Origin: Pseudomonas laurentiana | GTDB taxonomy: Bacteria; Pseudomonadota; Gammaproteobacteria; Pseudomonadales; Pseudomonadaceae | Reading direction: 5' to 3' | Assembly: GCF_014648275.1 (NCBI RefSeq) | Contig: NZ_BMQU01000002.1 | Span: 328,558 to 392,557 of the forward strand | DNA: 64,000 nt | Part shown: piece by piece, positions 24,060-62,845 of the stretch | Position numbering within the stretch: the first letter of the stretch is position 1 | Layout: each line of letters begins with the position of its first letter | The notes under the pieces: model-generated | What the model was told of the DNA's origin: nothing | Database searches by the model: none | The model's input: only the letters and a program-made list of their open reading frames with translations | Translations under genes and position numbers: made by a program

Positions 24060-26237
24060 TCAAGAAGGCTCGTCACCATCATCGTCATTGAACACGTCTT
24101 CCCAGTTGAACGCCAACACGCGATCGTCATCAGCAGAGACCGGAGCCATGGCCAACTGCTCAGCCTTCAGGTTCTCCGGATGCTGCCGCCAACGCTCGAG
24201 GCTGGCAGTCAATATCGCTGCCTGAGACGCGTAATGGCCGTACACATCCTCCGCATGGAGGCGAATGGTGTGTAGCATGAGTAAACGTTCCCGGGTGTTT
24301 TTCACCTGTTCGGCTTCACGCGCCAGCGCCCTGACCTCATGCTCGTGGGCATTCACGTAAGCATCGGGCCGAGCGAAAAGGTTGTGATGCTGCTGGCGCA
24401 GTTGCGCCTCGATGCTCACCAATGCCTCATCCACCTGGTTGAACTCGCGCCGGGTGACCAGGTAACGCTTGAGCTCATATGTTTCCTGCCATCGACGCAA
24501 CGTCGCCCAACAGCTTGGGATATACCCACCCACCATCGAATGATTACCGGCACTGAACATTTGCGCCAACAGCGACTGACGCTCCGGCAAGCCATTGCGC
24601 TGCCTGAGTGCCAGGGAGCAGGCGGCATGCTGGCTCACCGTATCGCAACCCGGCGACCAGAGAATCGAAGATTGCTCATGGGTGTCGAACTGCACCGGGA
24701 AGAAGTGCCACAGGAGGCCATGGTGTGCATAAGGCTCCCCCCCCCAATTGCTGATACCGGCGACAAACACCGAGAGGCCGACGGGCACATTGGCGAAGGT
24801 CATCGCAACCCCGGAGCCATACACCGACGGTTTGGTGTTCAACCAGGTACCAGGCACGCTCGGCACCGGGTCGTTGTGGTTGACCATTCGGTAGTGCTTT
24901 AACGCCTCGGCGCCCTTGACGAAGGTGGCATCCCCCGCCCGGGGTGCGCCGTAGGTGTAGAGCGAAATACTGTAACCATCAGGCTTGCGGCGCAGCATCT
25001 CCGAAACCAGCAAGGCTATGGCGCCGCCCAGGCTGTGGCCGCAGATCATTAGCCTTTGCCCGGCATAGAACTTCTCCAGGTAATTCAAGACAAAACCCAA
25101 AACCACTTGGGCGGCTTGATAGAAGCCTCGATGTACCTTACCTTCGCCCTCCTCGAAGGGCACCTGCAGCGCGTCGACATCACGCAAGGCGTCCCAAGGC
25201 ATCTCACTGGTGCCACGAATGGCAATCAGGATCAGTTCGTCATTATGGGTGATGAACGCCTGGCTATCCGTGCCCCCTGTGCTTTGCCTCGAGTCATCGA
25301 GAAAATGGAGGCTCTCGGGGTTTTCCTGCTTATCCCTGAGTTCGGGGTTGTTCTGGGGGTAGAGGCCAGAGTCAAAGGGCACCACTTCCAAACGCCGGGA
25401 ATACGCCACGTCTTCGTACAACGGGTAGTAGGCCTGTTTTTGCCCGGCATCGACCTGCCAGACCTCATCGAAACGGCACAGCGCGTCCCCCAGCATATTG
25501 CCCACGCTCGGCTGCCGCGGAAAGCTCACCAGACCACCCCGCACCGGTAGATCGCGGGGCGACTGCCCGAACGGGCAATAACTCAGGGTGGCCATCAACG
25601 CCAGTTGATAAAGGTTCAGGGCGCAGAACTGCGGGCGGGTTGAGAGCATCGGCAGCAGTGCGCGCAGCGGGCGGACCTCCAGCACCGTGTGCCGGTTCGG
25701 CAACAGGCCAAACCCTTGCTCGCCGTACTTGCCCATCAGCCGCCGTAACCCAAGGGTGCGCTTGAAATGGCAGGCGACCTCGGGAGGCAGATGCGCGACA
25801 TGCCTGACCAGGTGCCGAACCTCGACCTGATAATACGCATCCGCACAGGCCTGGGCCGGGTTGCTGGTGGTACGCGCACCATCGTGATTGCGGTAGCGGG
25901 TCTGTTCCGCGCGGACCTGAAGTTCGGTGATGGGGAGTGGGTAGGACTGCCTATCCATTAAGCGTGAGTAAAGTGGGACGCTTTGGTTATGCAAACTATT
26001 AAAGTTCACAGCAACCGGCCCCGCGAAGTGATTGTCTACTTTGCCCTTGCCTGCACTGTCCAAACTCCCCTTATAAACATGACCTTCGCTGTCAATGACC
26101 TCATAAAGAAGACCCGCATAGGGCTCACCAGACCCAAGCTCGTCTACCAATTGAAAGCTGGTCCATCGACCTTGTCGAGGGCAAGAAAACATACGACTAC
26201 CCAATGGGGCTTGTAACTCGTCATCCGACTTTGACAC
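24060..26237 (-). CDS. T6SS lipase effector, class 3 lipase domain
   Basis: 725 residues from a GTG at 26237 preceded by AAGGAG. A lipase class 3 domain lies in the middle: nucleophile in ICGHSLGGAIALL (Ser at about 402), YTYGAPRAGDATF, Asp candidate in VNHNDPVPSVPG and His in GEPYAHHGLLWHF. The C-terminal part (about 560-700) is helical and may be a toxin accessory or membrane-contact region. No signal peptide is present, fitting export on VgrG. It is the last gene of vgrG-DUF4123-immunity-immunity-effector, so it is best read as a Tle-type phospholipase attacking target-cell membranes, with the two lipoproteins as immunity. Confidence 0.85.
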   Translation of the reverse strand: MSKSDDELQAPLGSRMFSCPRQGRWTSFQLVDELGSGEPYAGLLYEVIDSEGHVYKGSLDSAGKGKVDNHFAGPVAVNFNSLHNQSVPLYSRLMDRQSYPLPITELQVRAEQTRYRNHDGARTTSNPAQACADAYYQVEVRHLVRHVAHLPPEVACHFKRTLGLRRLMGKYGEQGFGLLPNRHTVLEVRPLRALLPMLSTRPQFCALNLYQLALMATLSYCPFGQSPRDLPVRGGLVSFPRQPSVGNMLGDALCRFDEVWQVDAGQKQAYYPLYEDVAYSRRLEVVPFDSGLYPQNNPELRDKQENPESLHFLDDSRQSTGGTDSQAFITHNDELILIAIRGTSEMPWDALRDVDALQVPFEEGEGKVHRGFYQAAQVVLGFVLNYLEKFYAGQRLMICGHSLGGAIALLVSEMLRRKPDGYSISLYTYGAPRAGDATFVKGAEALKHYRMVNHNDPVPSVPGTWLNTKPSVYGSGVAMTFANVPVGLSVFVAGISNWGGEPYAHHGLLWHFFPVQFDTHEQSSILWSPGCDTVSQHAACSLALRQRNGLPERQSLLAQMFSAGNHSMVGGYIPSCWATLRRWQETYELKRYLVTRREFNQVDEALVSIEAQLRQQHHNLFARPDAYVNAHEHEVRALAREAEQVKNTRERLLMLHTIRLHAEDVYGHYASQAAILTASLERWRQHPENLKAEQLAMAPVSADDDRVLAFNWEDVFNDDDGDEPS

Positions 26238-26249
26238 TTTGCGATCTCC

Positions 26250-27083
26250 TTATTCTGTGCAGCTCGGGTAAACCGTACATCTACGCCCATCAGGCATCAT
26301 GAAGTCGGTGAACCTAGGTGGGCTTATACAACTTTCTTCATTTTCCGTACCCCACCGGCCTGTGCATGGGCGCCAGCCCTCTTTCGTTTTCAACCAAAAA
26401 CCGTCGTAATACGGTTCTTCACTTTCATCGACCCTTACATTCAGCCTCACTGTTTTACCCGGCAGTTGCTCAAGGGTATACCCTGCAAAAGGATGCCCAG
26501 CACCCAACTGACCCTCCGCATCAATGGCTTTACAATCCAGTATTTTCACAATGCGCCGCTTCGGCCCCATCGTGCGAAAAAACCATTGGCACTGGCCATG
26601 AAACGTACTTTCACCTGCAGCATTGAATATTTCTCTGTACTGCCCCTCTCGTTCATAGCGAATCGCGACTAAACCCGTATCTTCGCCAAAATCAAACCAG
26701 TCGTCGCTATACGCAGCTGCAATCTGTAACTCTATGCGACGCAGTACCAACGGACACCCGCTGACCGTTCGATACAAGGCAATGACCGAATTGGGCTCGT
26801 ACTCTTTTCGCCATTTCAAGTTATAACCCACCTCGGTTTTTCGCCCGCCCGGCACCGTACAGGTTTCCCCTTCGTCGGGCACGTAAACCGCAATCGCCTT
26901 GTAGGCAAAACCTGGCGGCAAATCGGCGGTGAAGGTGAAGTGGTTCGGCGGCGCGCTTGTGCAACCTGCCAACAATGTGAAACCAAAGTAAAAGAGCAGC
27001 CGTGCGCAACTACTGATTTGCACTTGCTCAGTCACTGGCCCATTACCCAATAATAAATTCAAGACTTTATCCCGTGGTGGCAT
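26250..27083 (-). CDS. T6SS immunity lipoprotein, copy 2 (Tli-like)
   Basis: 277 residues with a signal sequence and lipobox (LLFYFGFTLLAGCTS), so a periplasm-facing lipoprotein as expected for protection against a periplasmic lipase. The start has AAGGAC seven bases upstream. It is a close paralogue of the preceding gene: near-identical N-terminal block (PPNHFTFTADLPPGFAYKAI) and C-terminal block (PPRFTDFMMPDGRRCTVYPS), with a diverged middle. The effector start is 12 bp away. It may be a Tli3-like immunity family; that assignment is by context and appearance only. Confidence 0.82.
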   Translation of the reverse strand: MPPRDKVLNLLLGNGPVTEQVQISSCARLLFYFGFTLLAGCTSAPPNHFTFTADLPPGFAYKAIAVYVPDEGETCTVPGGRKTEVGYNLKWRKEYEPNSVIALYRTVSGCPLVLRRIELQIAAAYSDDWFDFGEDTGLVAIRYEREGQYREIFNAAGESTFHGQCQWFFRTMGPKRRIVKILDCKAIDAEGQLGAGHPFAGYTLEQLPGKTVRLNVRVDESEEPYYDGFWLKTKEGWRPCTGRWGTENEESCISPPRFTDFMMPDGRRCTVYPSCTE

Positions 27084-27095
27084 CGCGTAATGTCC

Positions 27096-27866
27096 TTATT
27101 CTGTACAGCTCGGGTAAACCGTACATCTACGCCCATCAGGCATCATGAAGTCGGTGAACCTTGGCGGATTAATGCAAGGCTCCTCGTTTACCGTACCCCA
27201 TCGCCCCGTACATGGCCGCCAACCACCCGGACTCTTAAGCCACCAGCCGTTATAATAGGGGCTCTCTTCTTCCGCCAACTTTATGTGCAGTCTTACGACC
27301 TTACCTGACAACTGCTCAACTGCATAAGCAGCAAAGGGTTTTCCGCGACCCAATCGGCCCTCTTCGTCGGTCGATGTGCAATCAAGAATTTTGCGAAGCA
27401 CACGATGCTTACCCATCGTGCGAAAAAACCATTGGCACTGGCCATGAAAAGTGCTTTCGCCAGCAGTGTTGAATGTCTCTTTATACTGCTCATCCAGCTC
27501 ATAGCGAATCGCTACACCGCCGGTGCTATAGCTCCTATCCCAAACACTTTCACCATAGACCGAACCAATGTTCAAATTGATACTTCTTAACACCAACGGA
27601 CACCCACTGACGGTCCGATACAAAGCAATAACCGAATTGGGCTCGTACTCTTTCCACCACTTCAAGTTATAACCCACTTCAGTCTTTCGCCCGCCCGGCA
27701 CCGTACAGGTTTCCCCTTCGTCGGGCACGTAAACCGCAATCGCCTTGTAGGCAAAACCCGGCGGCAAATCGGCGGTGAAGGTGAAGTGGTTCGGCGGCGC
27801 ACTTGTGCAACCTGCAAGCCATGTAAAACCGAAGTACGCGAGCCCTCGTTGCATAGCCCGGATCAT
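27096..27866 (-). CDS. T6SS immunity lipoprotein, copy 1 (Tli-like)
   Basis: 256 residues from ATG 27866, which overlaps the stop of the DUF4123 gene (ATGA). Signal and lipobox are GLAYFGFTWLAGCTS. It shares both end blocks with the second copy; the middle (SINLNIGSVYGESVWDRSYS) differs. Several cysteines (in GETCTVPGG, SGCPLVL, RPCTGRW, RCTVYPSC) suggest disulfides in the periplasm. Tandem diverged immunity copies ahead of the effector would neutralise the own lipase and possibly related ones from neighbours. Confidence 0.82.
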   Translation of the reverse strand: MIRAMQRGLAYFGFTWLAGCTSAPPNHFTFTADLPPGFAYKAIAVYVPDEGETCTVPGGRKTEVGYNLKWWKEYEPNSVIALYRTVSGCPLVLRSINLNIGSVYGESVWDRSYSTGGVAIRYELDEQYKETFNTAGESTFHGQCQWFFRTMGKHRVLRKILDCTSTDEEGRLGRGKPFAAYAVEQLSGKVVRLHIKLAEEESPYYNGWWLKSPGGWRPCTGRWGTVNEEPCINPPRFTDFMMPDGRRCTVYPSCTE

Positions 27867-28717
27867 CGACTGCCACCTTGGGTACAAAATCGGGTACGCA
27901 GGTACACGCGTTCAAAATGTGCGCTCGGCCTTTCACCCGGCTGTACCTCCCACCATTCCGGCAGCCGATAGTCGGGCGACTGCAAACTCTGGGTCAGTAG
28001 AAATTCCAGCTGCGCTGCTTGCTTCCACCCCCATCGCTCTGCCAGTTCCAGCAAGCGCGTCAACCAGAGGTCCGGTGGATGACGCTCGGCCAGGGCTGCG
28101 TAGGCCTCGAGGTGCTCGGCCAGCAGGTAGCGATGGGCGTTGGTATACCGCAACTCAGCCGTGAGCTGTGCGGGCGCGGGAACGTGCAACCACGCTGGAT
28201 CAGGGGGTAGCGGGTATCGACCTGGCGCGGGGTTTTCGGTGACAGTCCAGCACGCCCCCTGCCAGTAACAAACGCTGATGGCCGTACCCAAGTATTCGGC
28301 AACGACCGATACTGGCAAGTACGCCAGTGCCCGGCTCAGCACACGAGGATCCTGGAAACGGTAGAGTGCCTGGTGCGGTCGGGGGCCAATCAGCAAGCGC
28401 TCGCGCCAGTGTTCGACCCATTCGGACAACCCGCCTTCAGGAAGGCTGGCGAACCAGCCCCACTGGCAGTCCGGGGCGTTGATGAGTCGATCGAGTTCGT
28501 CATCATCGCCCTCCCCCAGGATAAACAGGAACGGGCCAATACCTGCCAGCTCCGCAACCGGGGTCGCGCTGCAAACACTGCTGTAGCGATCAGGGCTACG
28601 GCGGCCCGCCAACGCCTGCCGGGTTTCGAACTGATCCTGGGCATCCAGCACCAGGCACAGCGAGTAACCGTGGCGCAGTTGTTCGGCCATCCATTGACGG
28701 GGCGATAGTATTGTCAT
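27863..28717 (-). CDS. DUF4123 T6SS effector chaperone/adaptor
   Basis: 284 residues of the DUF4123 (Tap/TEC) type: MAEQLRHGYSLCLVLDAQDQ at the start, PFLFILGEGDDDELDRLINA, then LIGPRPHQALYRFQDPRVLS, the characteristic DUF4123 F-R-x-x-D-P motif. Such proteins load an effector onto its cognate VgrG and are not secreted. The ATG overlaps the vgrG stop (ATGA) and its own stop overlaps the first immunity gene, so the whole island is translationally coupled. Confidence 0.9.
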   Translation of the reverse strand: MTILSPRQWMAEQLRHGYSLCLVLDAQDQFETRQALAGRRSPDRYSSVCSATPVAELAGIGPFLFILGEGDDDELDRLINAPDCQWGWFASLPEGGLSEWVEHWRERLLIGPRPHQALYRFQDPRVLSRALAYLPVSVVAEYLGTAISVCYWQGACWTVTENPAPGRYPLPPDPAWLHVPAPAQLTAELRYTNAHRYLLAEHLEAYAALAERHPPDLWLTRLLELAERWGWKQAAQLEFLLTQSLQSPDYRLPEWWEVQPGERPSAHFERVYLRTRFCTQGGSR

Positions 28718-55561: not shown

Positions 55562-55928
55562 GAGGATCTCCCTGAAAGGCATGTGCCAGCCATGATCCGC
55601 CATCTCGATGACAGCCGCGCTGATGCGGATCAATTAGCGCTGACCCTACATTGTCGGACAATATGTAGTGCCGATAAAAAAACACTACAAACCCTATTGA
55701 CGCCGTTCATCGCCGCTTGCATGATGCAGACGTCTCCCCGATCGGGAGCGCTGGCAAGGGTGTTCCAGACCGCTCAACGGATCCAAGAGCTGTCCCTGGA
55801 TGGGTACTGCCCAAAAGGCAGAAAGTAGAAGCCCCCTGTTGTGACGCTGCTGTAGCAGCTTTCTGTCAACGCTACATGATTGGCGCCAAGCAATAACTCA
55901 ACAATTAATGGTGGTTAAGGGGGCTTTA
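55562..55928. other. Intergenic region upstream of the DASS transporter
   Basis: About 365 bp. It contains an operator-like palindrome at 55650-55662 and presumably the divergent promoters for the transporter and the small plus-strand gene. An 81-codon open frame (55583-55828) has no ribosome site and unremarkable composition and is not called. Confidence 0.5.
55650..55662. promoter_or_regulatory. GntR-type operator candidate
   Basis: ATTGTCGGACAAT is a perfect ATTGT-N3-ACAAT inverted repeat, the form bound by FadR/FCD-type GntR regulators. It lies about 90 bp upstream of the DASS transporter gene. No GntR gene is in the window. Confidence 0.5.
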
Positions 55929-56261
55929 ATGATGAACTTGAACAATCAACCTACTATCGACGAATTGGCCCGGCTGTTCGCAGCACGCAAGGACAGTCTC
56001 GACAGCCACATCCTCTGGGTCTGCGACTCGGGTGAAGTTCGCATCGACAAAGTCTCGCCGCTGGCCGGCGAAGAAGAGTTCGAGCAGCGCAACCCGAACA
56101 TGCGTGCCCGCTTCAAGATGTACCGTCGTGGCCATGGCTACGTCGGCAAGAAGGCTGCTGCCGATACCCACTTCATCGGTAACGTCCTGCAGACCCTGCA
56201 ACATGAATGGGCTGCCGTACAAAACCAGCCTGGGGTCCGCTTGATCGACCGCTACAGCTGA
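55929..56261 (+). CDS. Conserved-looking small hypothetical protein
   Basis: 110 residues from ATG 55929 (ATG 55932 equally possible), with AAGGGGG upstream. Soluble, no signal peptide: NNQPTIDELARLFAARKDSL, LDSHILWVCDSGEVRIDKVS, RYKxHR-like RRGHGYVGKKAAADTHFIGN. Charged, codon use like neighbouring genes and followed by a good terminator, so it is a real single-gene unit. Function unknown. Confidence 0.8.
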   Translation: MMNLNNQPTIDELARLFAARKDSLDSHILWVCDSGEVRIDKVSPLAGEEEFEQRNPNMRARFKMYRRGHGYVGKKAAADTHFIGNVLQTLQHEWAAVQNQPGVRLIDRYS

Positions 56262-56279: not shown

Positions 56280-56309
56280 AAGCCCGGCCTGAAAAGGTCG
56301 GGCTTTTTT
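56280..56309 (+). terminator. Rho-independent terminator
   Basis: AAGCCCGGCC pairs with GGTCGGGCTT (one mismatch) around GAAAA-like loop bases and is followed by a T-run. It ends the small gene and marks the left border of the AT-rich block. Confidence 0.88.
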
Positions 56310-56349
56310 CGTTCAAGTGCGGCAGGAGTACGACAAGTAACGCCAGCGA

Positions 56350-57648
56350 TTATTGAGCCAGAGCGCTTCGCCGATGTGTATCAGTAAACCGAATATATCT
56401 TAACACCAGAGACACCATAAGTATGAAAGTGCAGCCTGTTAAAGCCAAAATTATCGACTTGACGCCCGGCTGATACATTATGAAAAGACCCCAAGTAAGA
56501 AGCAAGCCGATACCGTTAAGACAGACTAACGTCATAGCCGTTGGCAACCAAGAATCACCAAGACTGCGCAAGACCATGCGGGTCACCACGTAGATAAGCT
56601 CAAAGACCAAAAAAGGGGTTGCTAGCTGTATACTTCCGGCTACCATAGCAGCTACCTGCTGATCTGAAGTATATAACAACGCTACGTAGTCCGGTAAAAA
56701 CACACATACTACGAGGCAAGGAGCCATTAGCAAACTACCAAATACAATACCTTCGACTAGCCTAGACCGAGAAATGGTAACGGAATCTCCTTGAGTATCT
56801 CCTGCTATCAATATCGCCGCGGCGTTTCCCACGCCAATGGATATCATGTATATAACACTTAGAAAGTGCATGGAGATTTGATAGGCAGCGAGCTCTATAT
56901 CGCCCATTTCTCTAGAAATTAGCGATAGTGCAAAATAAAGAAAACTTTCCCCACCAAAACATAGAGCCAGCGGTGCTCCGCTTGAAATAAGTTTAGCCTG
57001 ACCGAGCCAGTTGTTTTTACCTAAACGCCAAAGACTATAATGGCGCAGATCTACTCGCACAACGAAAAATATAACCAGCACTACCCCAACCCACCGTAAC
57101 AGGACATATGCAACAACATATTCAATTATACTTATTAGGGGCCTGTAATAGAGATACACCAAACTAGCCACTATGAATAACGCATTGATTGACCACAGAT
57201 AAAACAGCTCATACCTTGCCTTTCCCTGAGCATTAAGAAAATTAAAAACAACTATCTGGCAGTACAAAGCTGGAACTGCGAGTGACATTACCAACAATAT
57301 TTTTTGACCTGAAGGAATTTTTTGAATTGAGCCACTTACACCTATCACATAGATAAATACCAAGCCAACAATGACGAAACCAAATGTCAATGCTAGCTGT
57401 ATGGCCGCAGAAAGCAGGCGCGCTAGTTTATCAACACAAGTATTCCCGAACACCGCAACATCAATTAAAATCGTTGAAAAAAGACCTATTCCTAGCACCG
57501 TAATAAAAGAAATGAATGCCCAGGCAAACGACGCTCGCCCCACAAAATCGGGTAGATAATGCCCGACGAAAGCTAGAAACAAAAAAGAGGCTGTCATATC
57601 CCCCAACCTCGACACTATCAAAGGTGTCGCTAGCTTTGCTATTTTCAT
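56350..57648 (-). CDS. MATE-type/flippase membrane exporter
   Basis: 432 residues, twelve predicted helices, with the MATE/MVF pattern: KLATPLIVSRLGDMTASFLF at the start, AWAFISFITVLGIGLFSTIL, FGGESFLYFALSLISREMGD, AAYQISMHFLSVIYMISIGV (typical MATE Q/H region) and MVLRSLGDSWLPTAMTLVCL. It is the last gene of the AT-rich operon; its ATG overlaps the stop of the SAHH-like gene (ATGA). The role fits export of a small-molecule product or self-protection. Codon use is AT-rich compared with the flanks. Confidence 0.85.
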   Translation of the reverse strand: MKIAKLATPLIVSRLGDMTASFLFLAFVGHYLPDFVGRASFAWAFISFITVLGIGLFSTILIDVAVFGNTCVDKLARLLSAAIQLALTFGFVIVGLVFIYVIGVSGSIQKIPSGQKILLVMSLAVPALYCQIVVFNFLNAQGKARYELFYLWSINALFIVASLVYLYYRPLISIIEYVVAYVLLRWVGVVLVIFFVVRVDLRHYSLWRLGKNNWLGQAKLISSGAPLALCFGGESFLYFALSLISREMGDIELAAYQISMHFLSVIYMISIGVGNAAAILIAGDTQGDSVTISRSRLVEGIVFGSLLMAPCLVVCVFLPDYVALLYTSDQQVAAMVAGSIQLATPFLVFELIYVVTRMVLRSLGDSWLPTAMTLVCLNGIGLLLTWGLFIMYQPGVKSIILALTGCTFILMVSLVLRYIRFTDTHRRSALAQ

Positions 57649-58817
57649 GGAAGCTGTATCTCGGCAATTATTTCTGAATAGACATCTTCTTCCCAGTCAG
57701 ACGACAGCGAAAAGCCTAACGAGCTCAAAAATATTGAAAATATCCTACCGAAGAGAATGTGCAGTGATAGATTTCTCGCATCGAAGGCGGCGTAAACCGA
57801 TAGATTAACCGGCCTTCCGCGATTAACTACATTAATCCTCTTTCCGCGCCAATCAAAAAAACTCTCACCCCCTTCTTCAAAAAGACGCTTAACAGGCTCA
57901 TCAAACTCATCATCGTAAGACGTTACCACCGAGACATACGAGTTACTTCTCAATGTTGAAAGAACTTCGGTAGTTACCCCTTTTTGTCCTGACATAGAAA
58001 AACAATAATCAAATCGATCAGCTAAGCCCACTAGTTGCTTTGATGCTTTAGCTTCGAACCCTTCAGTTGATGCCATGAAAAGTCTAGCCTTATCTGCGTC
58101 GACCACAACAATATTTCTAACCCCTCTGCTACGCAATCCAAAACAGAGTGAGCGACCAATCCTTCCATAACCAATGACTAGTGTTGCCTTATATGTAGAC
58201 CAATCAGCAACAAAGGAATGTAAGTGACCTAAAATCATATTTGCCACCATTACATTTTCTGCCATTTTGTATGAATCGTAAGCTACTGACTTGAACCTCT
58301 CGGACGAGCTGTAGCCTGTGTCCCTGTACTTGATATGGCCGTTGGCAGTATCCTCCAAAACAAGCAGAAGGCGATCACCCAGTCGTTCAGCTAGCCGATC
58401 TATGTATGGGGCAAAATACCCCCCAATATCAAATAGAATAACTGGAAGACCAGTCTCAACTACGATAGCATCTATTTCCTCGACCGTTCTGTAAAACTCA
58501 GCCCGGTCACGTGATTTAAGTATGCGCGTAGGATTATTTATATGCCTAAGCAAGTTAGCATTAAGCGAAGACTTTTTGGGTATCAAATAGATATTTTCAA
58601 ATATCTTCATCCAACTATTACAGATACTGAGATTCACCGTCGTCGAAAGATGACAAAAACAGAATACCAAACAATTCTTTAATTCATTACTCTCGGCTGC
58701 CTTATGAGCAACCATGACCCGACCATAAAATAGCTCCGCAATACGGTGGGCGCTTATATAATTAAGCCGGTTCGAAACTGGTGAATTCCGGAAGAGACTT
58801 TCGACATTATTCATCAT
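57645..58817 (-). CDS. Diverged S-adenosylhomocysteine-hydrolase-like NAD-binding protein
   Basis: 390 residues. The Rossmann motif VIGYGRIGRSLCFGLRSRG (GYG at 216) with ribose-binding Asp in IVVVDADKARLFMASTEGFE matches the SAHH NAD domain. Upstream, VILFDIGGYFAP and LVLEDTANGHIKY align with the SAHH substrate motifs; D130 and E155 keep the 25-residue spacing of D131/E156 of mammalian SAHH, and K176/D181 may stand for K186/D190 with one extra residue. The normal SKFDN and GDNGG-type motifs are lost. It could be a repurposed NAD-using hydrolase/oxidoreductase on a nucleoside-like substrate. About 40-80 residues shorter than true SAHH. Confidence 0.7.
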   Translation of the reverse strand: MMNNVESLFRNSPVSNRLNYISAHRIAELFYGRVMVAHKAAESNELKNCLVFCFCHLSTTVNLSICNSWMKIFENIYLIPKKSSLNANLLRHINNPTRILKSRDRAEFYRTVEEIDAIVVETGLPVILFDIGGYFAPYIDRLAERLGDRLLLVLEDTANGHIKYRDTGYSSSERFKSVAYDSYKMAENVMVANMILGHLHSFVADWSTYKATLVIGYGRIGRSLCFGLRSRGVRNIVVVDADKARLFMASTEGFEAKASKQLVGLADRFDYCFSMSGQKGVTTEVLSTLRSNSYVSVVTSYDDEFDEPVKRLFEEGGESFFDWRGKRINVVNRGRPVNLSVYAAFDARNLSLHILFGRIFSIFLSSLGFSLSSDWEEDVYSEIIAEIQLP

Positions 58818-58848
58818 GACTTCCTGTCATTTAATTATTATAATCTTT

Positions 58849-59370
58849 CTAGTTCAGGATCATATTCAATAGCATAGTATAAATTAAGGATAGCGAGTTC
58901 AAAGGCAGATCAATCTGTTGCTCTGTGGCCCCCACCATGCTATTTGGGTGGCCGAACATAATCGAGTTAAAATCAGATAAAGCGTCGCTAAAAACTTCCA
59001 TATTTTTCGACTGACAAACTCCTCCTGCCCATTTAAACGCTAAACCGTTGGCCACTTCACCAGGAAGCTTAAGCGCGATACCTAAATCCACCTCAAGAGA
59101 ATTAGCATTACTCTCTTCACGCAATCGAACACACATATCGGAAATTCGTTTCGTGAGATACAGCAATCCCATTAGAGCTTGCACTCTTGCCTTAGTGAAA
59201 TCCTTAGTTTCGAGTGAATTAAATATCTTGGTAACCAGCTCACTTAGATCATTATCTGAAGCGACGGTAGTGCTTTTGAAATAGTTATCCCACACCAGAG
59301 TGGTTGTCACCATTTTTACAGCAGCTATGCACTCGAGCTCTTCCAAGGCGATCATATAATCATCATTCAT
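58849..59370 (-). CDS. Unknown protein of the AT-rich operon
   Basis: 173 residues, acidic and mostly helical: DDYMIALEELECIAAVKMVT, LSELVTKIFNSLETKDFTKA, VQALMGLLYLTKRISDMCVR, LNSLSLIYTMLLNMILN. No recognised family, signal peptide or clear catalytic motif. Its start overlaps the acetokinase-like stop (ATGA) and 31 bp separate it from the SAHH-like gene, so it is integral to the operon, perhaps as an accessory or carrier-like subunit. No guess at activity is offered. Confidence 0.75.
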   Translation of the reverse strand: MNDDYMIALEELECIAAVKMVTTTLVWDNYFKSTTVASDNDLSELVTKIFNSLETKDFTKARVQALMGLLYLTKRISDMCVRLREESNANSLEVDLGIALKLPGEVANGLAFKWAGGVCQSKNMEVFSDALSDFNSIMFGHPNSMVGATEQQIDLPLNSLSLIYTMLLNMILN

Positions 59371-60857
59371 AGTGTCACTACCGATCTAGTAGGAGTATCA
59401 AGGTAAATTTTTTTGCCCTCAATGAGGTTTAAATCAAAAGTCGAAGCTTCAAAAAATATAGTGGGTATACCCATATTACGCGCGCAGGAGGCCCTGAAAA
59501 AAAAATCACTTCGTTGGGCGCCTACAAGAATTAAGCCTTCAGGTAGATCGTCATTACCAAATAAAAAATCAGAGCCAGAACGGCACAAACAAATCTTTCC
59601 CTGCCCCCAACCATTTTTGCCCTCATGCACTGTTCCAATTGCAGTGCCCGGCACCTCACATACGCCCAGGCTTAGACCCAAACGATCTGTGACGCCACTA
59701 AATTTTTCGCACTCATCCAAAATACAAATTTGCTCATCAATATCAACCAAATACAAGGTGATGCCATCCGCTTCAACTGTTAAGGCCTCGGGTTTACTAA
59801 GCTTAGCGATCAGTTTTTCCATAGTTTCTATGGAAATCACTTTAGCGTTATATAGCAGTGTAGGTCCCAACCATCGATGCTTGGTCGCTAAGCCCCCAGA
59901 GAAAATAAAGCTGTTAGCGCTTGGGACTTCTGCGATAGTCCTGAAAAGCTCAACACCATTCGCTTTTAAATATGACAGCTTCACCTCATTAAACTTTGGC
60001 AAACACAAAATATCTTCAACAGTGGTAGTACTATCAGCTGGCAAACCCGCCAATCCATATATTCCGCTCAAACGATTATATACATGACTTAATGATGATG
60101 GATCAAGACCATACTTTAAAAGTCGCAGAGATATTCCGGGCGGTTGCGTACCCGCTCTATTGTGCATCACCGGACCATCGCAGGCCGCGTATTGCATAGT
60201 ATTGTAAATTAACTTTCCATTCTCAACCGCTGAAAAGCTTACGCCTGAACCAACCTGGCAAATAACACCCGAAAAATTTCTGATTTGATTATATTTTTTT
60301 ACTTGCTCAAGACATGCCTTGATCGCCAGCCCATGATATCCATGAGCTAATAGCCCGTACCTTCTGATCAGAGAATGACTAAACGGTATCTTATATTCCT
60401 TATGGAGAGACAAATCCTCCACTACCTGATCTCTCACCATCAGTTGGTTAGCCGAGGGGAAAGCTATTTTGCATCTACCTAACACCTCTAAGCAGAGGGT
60501 ATTGTGCCGAGAGCTCAAATAATCATTGAACTGCATCACCTCCTCTTTTGCTTTGGTAAATTTCTCAACGACCTTACCGTACCCTGCAAATTTTACGCGA
60601 TGACCGATCGTGCTCGGCTTCGGCCAGCCAAGTCTTTCCAAAGCTTCTACCACGTTATCAATGATAACCGTCGCCGCTTTTCGTAAATCGTCTCTGACGG
60701 CAACTTGATATATGTAATCACTCATCCCCAACAGGCCGCTGTACTTGACCTTTACTTTCTGAACAGCCAAACCAATAAAGTTTATATTTACATCGACCCG
60801 ATCAGACTTATAGAATACTGATGTTTTTATAGACGAACTTCCGACATTGACAGCCAT
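59367..60857 (-). CDS. Acetokinase-fold protein with C-terminal PEP-swivel-like domain
   Basis: 496 residues from ATG 60857, preceded by CCAGGA; two upstream in-frame starts are less likely. The N-terminal 380 residues follow the acetate kinase plan: MAVNVGSSSIKTSVFY (phosphate loop), IGHRVKFAGYG, IRRYGLLAHGYHGLAIKA (as RRYGFHG), CQVGSGVSFSAVENGKLIY (as HLGNG) and MHNRAGTQPPGISL. The region matching the catalytic FDTAFHQ reads FPSANQL, so the Asp seems absent. From about 400, VPGTAIGTVHEG, LPEGLILVGAQRS and ASCARNMGIPTIFF resemble a PEP-utiliser swivel domain without its His. Coupled to the genes on both sides. Confidence 0.65.
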   Translation of the reverse strand: MAVNVGSSSIKTSVFYKSDRVDVNINFIGLAVQKVKVKYSGLLGMSDYIYQVAVRDDLRKAATVIIDNVVEALERLGWPKPSTIGHRVKFAGYGKVVEKFTKAKEEVMQFNDYLSSRHNTLCLEVLGRCKIAFPSANQLMVRDQVVEDLSLHKEYKIPFSHSLIRRYGLLAHGYHGLAIKACLEQVKKYNQIRNFSGVICQVGSGVSFSAVENGKLIYNTMQYAACDGPVMHNRAGTQPPGISLRLLKYGLDPSSLSHVYNRLSGIYGLAGLPADSTTTVEDILCLPKFNEVKLSYLKANGVELFRTIAEVPSANSFIFSGGLATKHRWLGPTLLYNAKVISIETMEKLIAKLSKPEALTVEADGITLYLVDIDEQICILDECEKFSGVTDRLGLSLGVCEVPGTAIGTVHEGKNGWGQGKICLCRSGSDFLFGNDDLPEGLILVGAQRSDFFFRASCARNMGIPTIFFEASTFDLNLIEGKKIYLDTPTRSVVTL

Positions 60858-60892
60858 TTTGCTATCCTGGCAATTCACATTCCTTACCATAT

Positions 60893-61954
60893 TTAGTCCC
60901 ACTCTTTCAAAAGACTTACGAGCGAAGGTGTATCTTCTGCTGCAAAGAATTTCTTCCTAAAATAATATTCGCATGTGGAAATTTTGTGATCCGTATGTTT
61001 TCTGCTATTAAACTCGTAGTTAAGCGCCGCCAAGGATGTTTCAGATGAAGGAAAAATTGGGTTCTTCGCCAGCAAGACCTCAATGGCCATGAAGACTTTG
61101 TCCATATACTCTAATGCATCCTCAATATAGCTGCGACACTCCTCCTCTGTAACAGCTCCACGTCTGGACAGATCAAAAAAAGCCTTCTTCAGGTCCTCAT
61201 GCCCCTCAACCCTGAAGACGTTGGAATATACCCACTTCGGATGTTTATTAGTAATTCCCGTCAGGTATGTAAAACTCATAGTGGTCTTGAGCATCATGTC
61301 TCGAGTAATCTCACATCCCATCCATAAATTCCCTGATTGCCAGCAACCTTGGACATCTTGGAACGCGTAAAAAACTGGTAACTTCTCGCGGTGAGCAACG
61401 TAAATATGTTTATCCCGGGGGATTTGTTTTTTCAGCTCAATGAATTGTGCTTCATTAGCTAGTGCATATCCAGTTAGCGAGCGATGAATAACGTTGTTTT
61501 CGCGCTCCAACAAGACTGGGCTATACAAGAATCTTTGATCAAATGAAATTCTTTCGAACGCAAGTTCGATTTTTGAAATAACCTCCTTAACTTCACCGAA
61601 GGTGATATAGTCAGTATCAATGTGTAACCCGCTTTCGCCATAAAAGTCAGTAGTATTGTGAACTTCTTCATTACGTATCAGAAAGTGATAATTTATATCA
61701 GTTACAAGCGCGTGGTCATTTGCTTTTACATCGTTTGCTTTCGGCCTTTCATCACACAAAACGATACAATCAATATCAGAATGCGCTGTCCCGATCCCTT
61801 CAATGAGCGTACCCGAGACTATCAGGATACTCCCCTCTTCCAATCTAACCCTTTGACGGAGATAGTCTGTTGGAACAACAACCGCACCGTCCAAAACTGA
61901 TACTTCACTTTCCGTAATCTTAGACCTGGCCAGCTTGATTAGTTTACTTTCCAT
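60893..61954 (-). CDS. Nucleotidyltransferase (Pol beta superfamily)
   Basis: 353 residues from ATG 61954 with GGAG upstream. The NTase motif is VSGTLIEGIGTAHSDIDCIV (residues 46-65): Gly-Thr, then the SDID pair of metal ligands (D60, D62); a third acidic residue may be in LHIDTDYITFGE. The C-terminal 200 residues are helical with no recognised domain. It is the first gene of the operon. It could adenylylate a small molecule, or be a sensor; the association with an acetokinase-like protein and SAHH-like enzyme favours small-molecule chemistry. Confidence 0.78.
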   Translation of the reverse strand: MESKLIKLARSKITESEVSVLDGAVVVPTDYLRQRVRLEEGSILIVSGTLIEGIGTAHSDIDCIVLCDERPKANDVKANDHALVTDINYHFLIRNEEVHNTTDFYGESGLHIDTDYITFGEVKEVISKIELAFERISFDQRFLYSPVLLERENNVIHRSLTGYALANEAQFIELKKQIPRDKHIYVAHREKLPVFYAFQDVQGCWQSGNLWMGCEITRDMMLKTTMSFTYLTGITNKHPKWVYSNVFRVEGHEDLKKAFFDLSRRGAVTEEECRSYIEDALEYMDKVFMAIEVLLAKNPIFPSSETSLAALNYEFNSRKHTDHKISTCEYYFRKKFFAAEDTPSLVSLLKEWD

Positions 61955-62467
61955 CGGATGCTCCAATATTATGGGCTTAATTCGCGCCTTCGCGACCAAA
62001 GGGCGCAGGTACTTTTAAATCACTATGCTATAGACGAACGTCCGACAGACCAGAAAGCCCGGTGTTCGCTGTCCTGGCTTTGCTTAGCATTGAGGCAAAA
62101 CTTTAAAGCCTACATGCGGATACAGAAAATGGGGAATGGAACGGGAATACATAGTGTGTCCTTACCGTTTGAATACCTTAGCCTTTTTAGACAAGCAAAA
62201 GATTCTTAAATTGACAAGTCGTTTTTACGATTATTTTTACACACAGTTAAAAATCAAAAAAAATCATAGAGTTAGAGTTTAACTAACACTGTGTCTAGAT
62301 GGCTCTTCTGCATTCGATGTTTATGACTTGTGTTTCCTAAAGCGAATTATCTAGCCGCACACCTATATCAGTTTCAGACCTTTCCTACAAACCCGATCAT
62401 TGACCTCTATCCATTAATTGCATAGTGCCCAATGTATACCTAATAAACGTGTAACAAAGCGGCATAA
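61955..62467. other. AT-rich intergenic region upstream of the operon
   Basis: About 510 bp, low GC. It must carry the operon promoter (minus strand), but no unambiguous -35/-10 was identified. On the plus strand TTGACA occurs near 62211. Runs of A and T at 62217-62280 could be a bent or silencer-bound (H-NS/MvaT-like) region. Short open frames here are not supported. Confidence 0.5.
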
Positions 62468-62677
62468 GTGCACCCGATAGATACGGCTACTTCCTCTAAT
62501 TTGGAAAGCCCCGTAGACCGACTGGAAATGCTGATCCAGGCTCTGCAGATGAACTGCGAATGGGGTGACGTTGTTCCAGTGCTACCGCTGATCGGACAGG
62601 AACATGGAGCGCTTCTCGAAAACGGCGAGTGCGTTTTTCCACGTCGGAAGATGATTGCCGTCTTGCTGATGCGCTGA
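62468..62677 (+). CDS. Possible small protein
   Basis: A 69-codon frame from a GTG, with GC-normal codon use, lying just outside the AT-rich block: SPVDRLEMLIQALQMNCEWG, VVPVLPLIGQEHGALLENGE. A terminator follows after 45 bp. No ribosome site is obvious and no family is recognised, so this is tentative. Confidence 0.4.
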   Translation: MHPIDTATSSNLESPVDRLEMLIQALQMNCEWGDVVPVLPLIGQEHGALLENGECVFPRRKMIAVLLMR

Positions 62678-62722
62678 GAAACCGCAATTTCGTCGGTGCA
62701 GTGAAACCTGGCCTTGAAATAT

Positions 62723-62753
62723 AAAACGCCCGATGCGATGCATCGGGCGTTTT
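62723..62753. terminator. Strong bidirectional terminator
   Basis: AAAACGCCCGATGC and GCATCGGGCGTTTT form a long stem with As before and Ts after, so it could work on both strands. It closes the possible small gene and isolates the haemoglobin gene. Confidence 0.9.
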
Positions 62754-62845
62754 GAGGCTGAAATAGCTGTAAACCTATTTCAGCACTAGACAAAGGCTAC
62801 GCCAGCTCTCGCTACAATGACGCTTTCATCTCAAGAGTCCTGCAA

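Follow-up and report, generated by a model that had tools for sequence, protein, structure and literature searches.

The operon at positions 56350-61954, on the minus strand, of a 64,000-nt stretch of the Pseudomonas laurentiana genome (GCF_014648275.1, contig NZ_BMQU01000002.1, forward strand 328,558-392,557; hereafter the window) is an insert whose five genes move through Pseudomonas as a block that has other neighbours wherever it occurs. In order of transcription they encode a nucleotidyltransferase (NTase), an acetokinase-family kinase, a small helical protein, a member of the S-adenosylhomocysteine hydrolase (SAHH) superfamily and a MATE-family exporter. We consider it moderately probable that this unit is a mobile mini-cluster for a small polar, most likely nucleoside-like antimetabolite, in which the NTase would provide self-protection and the MATE protein export. 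More tentatively, it may follow a hitherto undescribed plug-in design where, in different Pseudomonas species, a fixed NTase and MATE pair for protection and export is combined with either of two unrelated enzyme sets. The set in the window would then make a new antimetabolite with an acetate kinase repurposed for an acyl-phosphate step and an NAD enzyme on a rewired SAHH fold.

The five open reading frames (ORFs) fill the interval and are all intact, as a preliminary description of this DNA had claimed. The NTase gene (60893-61954, minus strand, 353 aa from its ATG) and the kinase gene (59367-60890, minus strand, 507 aa) are separated by 2 bp, or overlap by 10 bp with an alternative GTG start, and the kinase gene overlaps that of the helical protein (58849-59370, minus strand, 173 aa) by 4 bp, an overlap kept in all five intact operon copies. 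A gap of 31 bp precedes the SAHH-like gene (57645-58817, minus strand, 390 aa), which in turn overlaps the last gene, that of the MATE exporter (56350-57648, minus strand, 432 aa), by 4 bp. The AT-rich island between GC-rich flanks was confirmed as well, with a GC fraction of 0.422 (42.2%) in the operon versus 0.606 (60.6%) in the remaining window. The "clean terminator" credited to the operon, on the other hand, belongs elsewhere: the T run of the hairpin at 56286-56304, just beyond the operon 3' end, lies on the plus strand and the hairpin is therefore assigned to the neighbour gene at 55908-56261. By eye, two relatives without the operon (L153 and L154) show comparable hairpins with a T run in the corresponding gap. 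Terminator-like sites numbered 7 against 5.9 expected, the promoter scan was at chance (13 found, 13.0 expected), and examination of the operon leader by RNA folding and with Rfam gave no lead. A 19-nt repeat with one mismatch is present at 60828-60846, at the start of the kinase gene, and at 62029-62047, in the leader.

Relatives of the NTase were sought by exact peptide patterns, which may miss distant copies, in one genome per species over 84,980 species. The 48 pattern matches resolved into 21 relatives at 20 loci, namely 18 close Pseudomonas loci (61-80% identity), one remote Pseudomonas locus and one remote Pasteurella locus; a class-level search recovered the NTase in the own genome alone (1 of 274). 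Among 399 sampled Pseudomonas genomes the NTase was found in 17 (own genome and one remote copy counted), the SAHH-like protein (E ≤ 1e-15) in four and the kinase (E ≤ 1e-30) in three, all of which hold the whole operon; in the fourth SAHH-like genome, G150, the gene is cut by the contig start and is followed by a MATE gene. Intact copies with all five genes in this order are those of the window, L050 (genome G129), L055/L072 (P. akapageensis), L066 (P. guariconensis) and L067 (Pseudomonas sp. R5(2019)), while the neighbouring genes, read by eye from translations, vary across these five copies. This constant order and the co-occurrence contradict an accidental grouping and uphold the earlier proposal that the genes belong together; the check for the same order in other genera, also proposed then, returned copies across Pseudomonas and none outside it in the searches made. 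In G129 the operon is followed (L050, 15801-18651) by an aminotransferase gene of class III and a decarboxylase gene, which by eye resemble the diaminobutyrate pair.

Apart from the three genomes with the five-gene operon and one with a remote copy (L065), the 17 NTase genomes comprise 13 in which the NTase stands in a second gene set. As assigned from one copy (L054), this alternative set consists of the NTase, the MATE exporter, a 350-aa protein, an IMPase-family phosphatase, a radical S-adenosylmethionine (SAM) protein (NCBIfam NF045502) and a thymidylate-kinase (TMK)-family protein. The 350-aa protein matched no Pfam family; its motif WLI(V/I)DK(A/S)YTGGSL resembles by eye a phosphoribosyl pyrophosphate site, and it is called phosphoribosyltransferase (PRTase)-like below. 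Eight of the 13 loci are complete; in the other five the MATE gene is missing or split, or the locus is a worn remnant; the species scan, in part over the same genomes, gave 15 alternative loci (7 complete, 1 with a split MATE gene, 2 without it, 5 remnants or cut), which suggests that the alternative cluster was lost repeatedly. The remnants in L073, L075, L078, L081 and L083 hold the NTase with radical SAM or TMK pieces, and those of L073 and L078 also reach a contig edge. Six alternative operons have a GC fraction of 0.41-0.42 versus 0.58-0.62.

The NTase and the exporter are thus the components shared by both architectures, and their pairwise distances are correlated over 13 loci (r 0.84) and over the eight of the alternative architecture taken alone (r 0.89), values each reached in none of 5000 permutations, a correlation showing that the pair stays together rather than protein contact, since shared vertical descent yields it too. 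The mean distance is 0.28 for the NTase versus 0.49 for the MATE protein. In a tree of 17 NTases four operon copies (L055 left out) form one side of a branch with support 100/99; one exchange of the middle genes therefore suffices to account for the data.

Relative to two operon-free genomes, the insert spans 56310-62806 with approximate borders. The left neighbour gene was found in 50 and the right one, globin-like as read by eye, in 13 of 59 Pseudomonas genomes searched (own genome counted in both), and four relatives carry both. About 110 bp separate the two genes in G015 and G025, against 6.6 kb in the window; in G007 the distance is about 0.9 kb and the intervening sequence is unrelated, and in G006 the match to the right gene is weak (40% identity) and on a different contig. 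Homology to the empty sites stops at about 56262 on the left and restarts at about 62807, with a 28-bp match over the hairpin beyond the left border in one empty site. At the right border lies a fragment of about 88 bases (62706-62793) of an IS3-family insertion sequence (IS) element: the 10 matches listed of 25 records cover 81-95 bases at 78-89% identity, and seven of these 10 are annotated as IS3-family or IS3-like transposase. No tRNA that could serve as integration site was found within the window.

The NTase carries the motif SGTLIEGIGTAHSDID, in which the acidic residues D60 and D62 are kept, and D113 is the probable third acidic residue. The window protein exceeds the curated cut-offs of no Pfam and no NCBIfam family, and among 14 relatives weak matches fell to MTPAP-like (6), NTP_transf_2 (4) and Polbeta (3) models. 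The assignment made earlier was borne out at the level of the fold, as the structural model has the two-domain ANT/Lnu fold of antibiotic nucleotidyltransferases and its nearest folds are mostly antibiotic-inactivating NTases. The modelled likeness to the O-nucleotidyltransferases KNTase/ANT(4''), AadA and LinB would be one of fold, with 7-11% identity, rmsd 4.9-6.5 and TM-scores of 0.34-0.50 where E ≤ 1e-3, and unlike these enzymes the NTase is encoded next to biosynthesis-like genes. An apparent break of the NTase of G225 by a TGA codon was rejected, as this copy is an intact 352-aa ORF with its own, slightly earlier stop.

The kinase is a clear member of the acetokinase family (PF00871, 71 bits versus a cut-off of 22; acetate kinase match in PDB, E 9.4e-15). 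The six catalytic residues compared, N7, R91, D148, H180, R241 and E384 in acetate kinase numbering, are identical in all five operon copies as in 19 of 19 AckA-type rows. It differs from AckA in the change of the His after GHRV to Phe, of N211 to Ser and, in four of five copies, of H208 to Gln, and in an added C-terminal region of about 110 residues (about 398-507). Its identity to AckA-type matches is 22-34%, and with 66.6 bits against a cut-off of 293.4 for NCBIfam ackA it is not an acetate kinase proper; the plasmid records that it matches number 293 and, among 30 listed, the annotations where present are acetate or propionate kinases. Therefore, of the acetokinase-swivel fusion described previously the first part stands and the second is weakly supported. 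For this swivel part, no Pfam match to the phosphoenolpyruvate (PEP)-utiliser swivel domain PF00391 was obtained, and hhalign against 25 PEP-utiliser domain sequences, one apparently in a wrong frame, gave the extension a probability of 17% (E 0.0014) over 15 columns only, while four further segments of the kinase scored 0.1-0.4%; by eye, a Phe occupies the position of the swivel catalytic His.

The SAHH-like protein retains a Rossmann NAD-binding region with a GYGRIG motif (TrkA_N 26.5 bits versus a cut-off of 23.8; AdoHcyase_NAD 26.0 bits, slightly under the cut-off of 27) and matches adenosylhomocysteinases in PDB from E 6.3e-8. Its active site, however, is altered: the SAHH catalytic residues D131, D190, H301 and H353 (human numbering) are replaced by I131, N188, S300 and F345 in all five operon copies, while H55, K186 and N346 are kept and E156 is Asp. 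Consequently, the superfamily and fold named in the preliminary description hold and SAHH chemistry cannot be taken for granted, and a role as SAH hydrolase or in the methylation cycle was rejected in view of these replacements and of a separate 469-aa AhcY-like protein in the same genome. In an alignment search over the phylum 285 of 299 genomes matched, and the listed matches other than the window protein score like ordinary SAHH (own AhcY, 1.7e-27).

The portion of PMC8599513 consulted describes AgmF as an SAHH homologue that acts as an NAD-dependent dehydratase on angustmycin C, with H56, D129, K184, D188 and H299 reported as essential. AgmF is likewise an SAHH-fold protein from a small-molecule cluster, and the positions of its His56 and Lys184 are kept in the SAHH-like protein; D129, D188 and H299, however, correspond to I131, N188 and S300, so that two of the five residues reported there as essential are kept. 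These positions were placed via the alignment of the own-genome AhcY and residue spacing, AgmF itself being outside the alignment. An AgmF-like dehydratase as a firm claim was weakened by this residue table, and chemistry of either the SAHH or the AgmF type is not assured by the residues of the protein.

The MATE assignment was corroborated by PF01554 (83.9 bits versus a cut-off of 24.9). The protein between kinase and SAHH-like enzyme is predicted to be all-helical; the fold search assigned it no fold, families that did not appear being not thereby excluded, and a search of plasmids returned no match for it.

Among 72,556 plasmid records, relatives of the SAHH-like protein (E ≤ 1e-3, 22-37% identity) are present on 57, of which eleven neighbourhoods were examined, and relatives of the NTase (E ≤ 0.01) on three. 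Hosts of SAHH-like relatives accompanied by HD-domain and MFS genes are Lactiplantibacillus, Lentilactobacillus and Staphylococcus. At four loci of lactic acid bacteria the MFS, HD-domain and SAHH-like genes follow each other in that order, one triplet carrying the SAHH-like frame without annotation, and the two proteins aligned (L022 and L031) have other residues in place of both H301 and D131. This triplet is that of L021, L022, L030 and L031, and most of the listed records annotate the protein as SAH hydrolase. On a plasmid of Staphylococcus epidermidis (L023) the SAHH-like gene is flanked by an HD gene and by MFS genes, within a run that holds an orotate phosphoribosyltransferase; the HD proteins encoded there and in L022 match a phosphohydrolase model with scores under the cut-off. 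The L023 plasmid is 25 kb long and its run reads TIGR00730-type, ParB-N, HpaB-like, NUDIX, peptidase, pyridoxal phosphate (PLP) enzyme, orotate phosphoribosyltransferase, HD, SAHH-like and MFS. In L029 methyltransferase, phosphoribosyltransferase and HAD genes are downstream of the SAHH-like gene, and L027 is unannotated.

The remote NTase relatives share 23-27% identity with the window protein. The one on an Agrobacterium plasmid adjoins MFS, dTMP kinase, ATP-grasp and PLP-enzyme genes, with nucleoside phosphorylase and pyrimidine genes nearby, and the one of Parageobacillus (weak, E 5e-3) adjoins MFS, HAD, myo-inositol-1-phosphate synthase and methionine adenosyltransferase genes. This last cluster (L119, Parageobacillus caldoxylosilyticus), which also holds PqqD-family and DegT-like genes, may, as we presume, belong to a carbocyclic-nucleoside type pathway. 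An unannotated Neorhizobium plasmid (L118) carries two NTase copies, one adjoining a peptidase C26 gene; a gene of this glutamine amidotransferase-like kind adjoins the NTase relative of Pasteurella oralis (L085) too. As for the alternative set, the PRTase-like protein matched no plasmid and the radical SAM protein matched 80 plasmid records at less than 60% identity, the best neighbourhood examined holding a second radical SAM gene with NUDIX, GalE and MFS genes. Judged from gene content, the neighbourhoods of these relatives would point, in part, to small-molecule clusters, in line with the earlier proposal of a small biosynthetic pathway that has its own means of export or resistance.

Under the favoured reading, the kinase would form an acyl phosphate from a carboxylate-bearing precursor, and the SAHH-fold protein, with NAD+, would rearrange a sugar-like substrate or catalyse an elimination from it in a redox-triggered reaction, with the helical protein assisting or accepting the activated acyl group. 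The NTase would then nucleotidylate a hydroxyl of the product, as self-protection or as a final tailoring step, before export by the MATE protein, and the alternative set, with its PRTase-like protein, phosphatase, radical SAM protein and TMK-family kinase, would lead to a related product by another route. Substrate, product, order of the steps and the roles of the helical protein and of a protective NTase are what we infer from these families. Several observations weigh against this reading. None of the five genes encodes a nucleoside-specific enzyme, so that of the nucleoside- or acyl-phosphate-derived product envisaged in the preliminary description the nucleoside-like class leans on the alternative set and on the remote relatives. 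Moreover, the helical protein is without assigned fold or function, four SAHH catalytic residues are replaced in every operon copy, the Foldseek TM-scores of the NTase model amount to a distant likeness, the operon leader lacks overall conservation in the other copies, and an HD and exporter context is absent, by annotation or by eye, from L024, L025, L026 and L028.

What the NTase would do separates the other readings. It could be a biosynthetic enzyme that sets an early nucleotide tag on a carrier or precursor, the kinase and the SAHH-fold protein acting on the tagged intermediate and a nucleotide conjugate being exported; its place as first gene, its slower change than the exporter, its retention with both enzyme sets and the peptidase C26 gene beside its relatives in Neorhizobium and Pasteurella agree with such a role, whereas the preponderance of antibiotic-inactivating NTases among the nearest folds and the four contexts that place the NTase beside, or in one operon with, an exporter gene argue against it, and we regard it as rather unlikely. 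That the NTase inactivates and the MATE protein expels a foreign compound degraded by the middle enzymes, which would make the operon a resistance or detoxification island, is improbable: the antibiotic-NTase-like fold, the exporter, the insertion, the IS fragment and the patchy distribution would suit it, but the two unrelated middle sets, one with radical SAM protein, kinase and phosphatase, look synthetic rather than degradative, and close copies were found in Pseudomonas only.

An anti-phage or signalling system, with the NTase making a nucleotide signal and the other genes responding or acting, appears very improbable; neither the NTase, searched against phages and viruses, nor the kinase, scanned against viruses, gave a lead, and the five proteins gave only weak partial matches to PADLOC anti-phage families (best E 5.9e-4). 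AT-rich inserts often gather unrelated cargo, yet chance neighbours are hardly credible in view of an order and an overlap kept in five genomes with different surroundings and of the co-occurrence counts.

In agreement with the preliminary description, a literature search of partial coverage gave no described pathway with this combination, and accounts elsewhere could exist. The nearest likeness, to the alternative architecture, is the three-gene 4'-thiothymidine cluster thmA-C of Photorhabdus, for which the consulted portion of PMC12691670 describes a radical SAM enzyme, a nucleoside kinase homologue and a self-protecting NTPase. As presented there, this small cluster is of the nucleoside type, includes a gene for its own protection and has a radical SAM gene adjoining a nucleoside-kinase-like gene, a likeness in the kinds of gene; its enzymes differ from those of the five-gene operon, and the term nucleotidyltransferase is absent from the main text as consulted.

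The operon would add to the known compact, exporter-coupled biosynthetic clusters one whose enzymes are unusually combined and whose middle genes can be exchanged. Small clusters of the nucleoside type are hard to spot where the classical signature genes of nonribosomal peptide or polyketide synthases are missing, and the fixed NTase-exporter pair is a searchable handle for further ones. Should the favoured reading be true, antimetabolite biosynthesis would gain an acyl kinase from the acetate kinase family and an SAHH fold with altered catalysis, in a five-gene pathway small enough for testing in a laboratory strain.

Elsewhere in the window, another AT-richer stretch (24060-28717, minus strand) encodes a 725-aa lipase-like protein, two similar small lipoprotein-like proteins of 277 and 263 aa and a 284-aa protein; read by eye, these are perhaps a lipase effector of type VI secretion, its duplicated immunity proteins and an adaptor.

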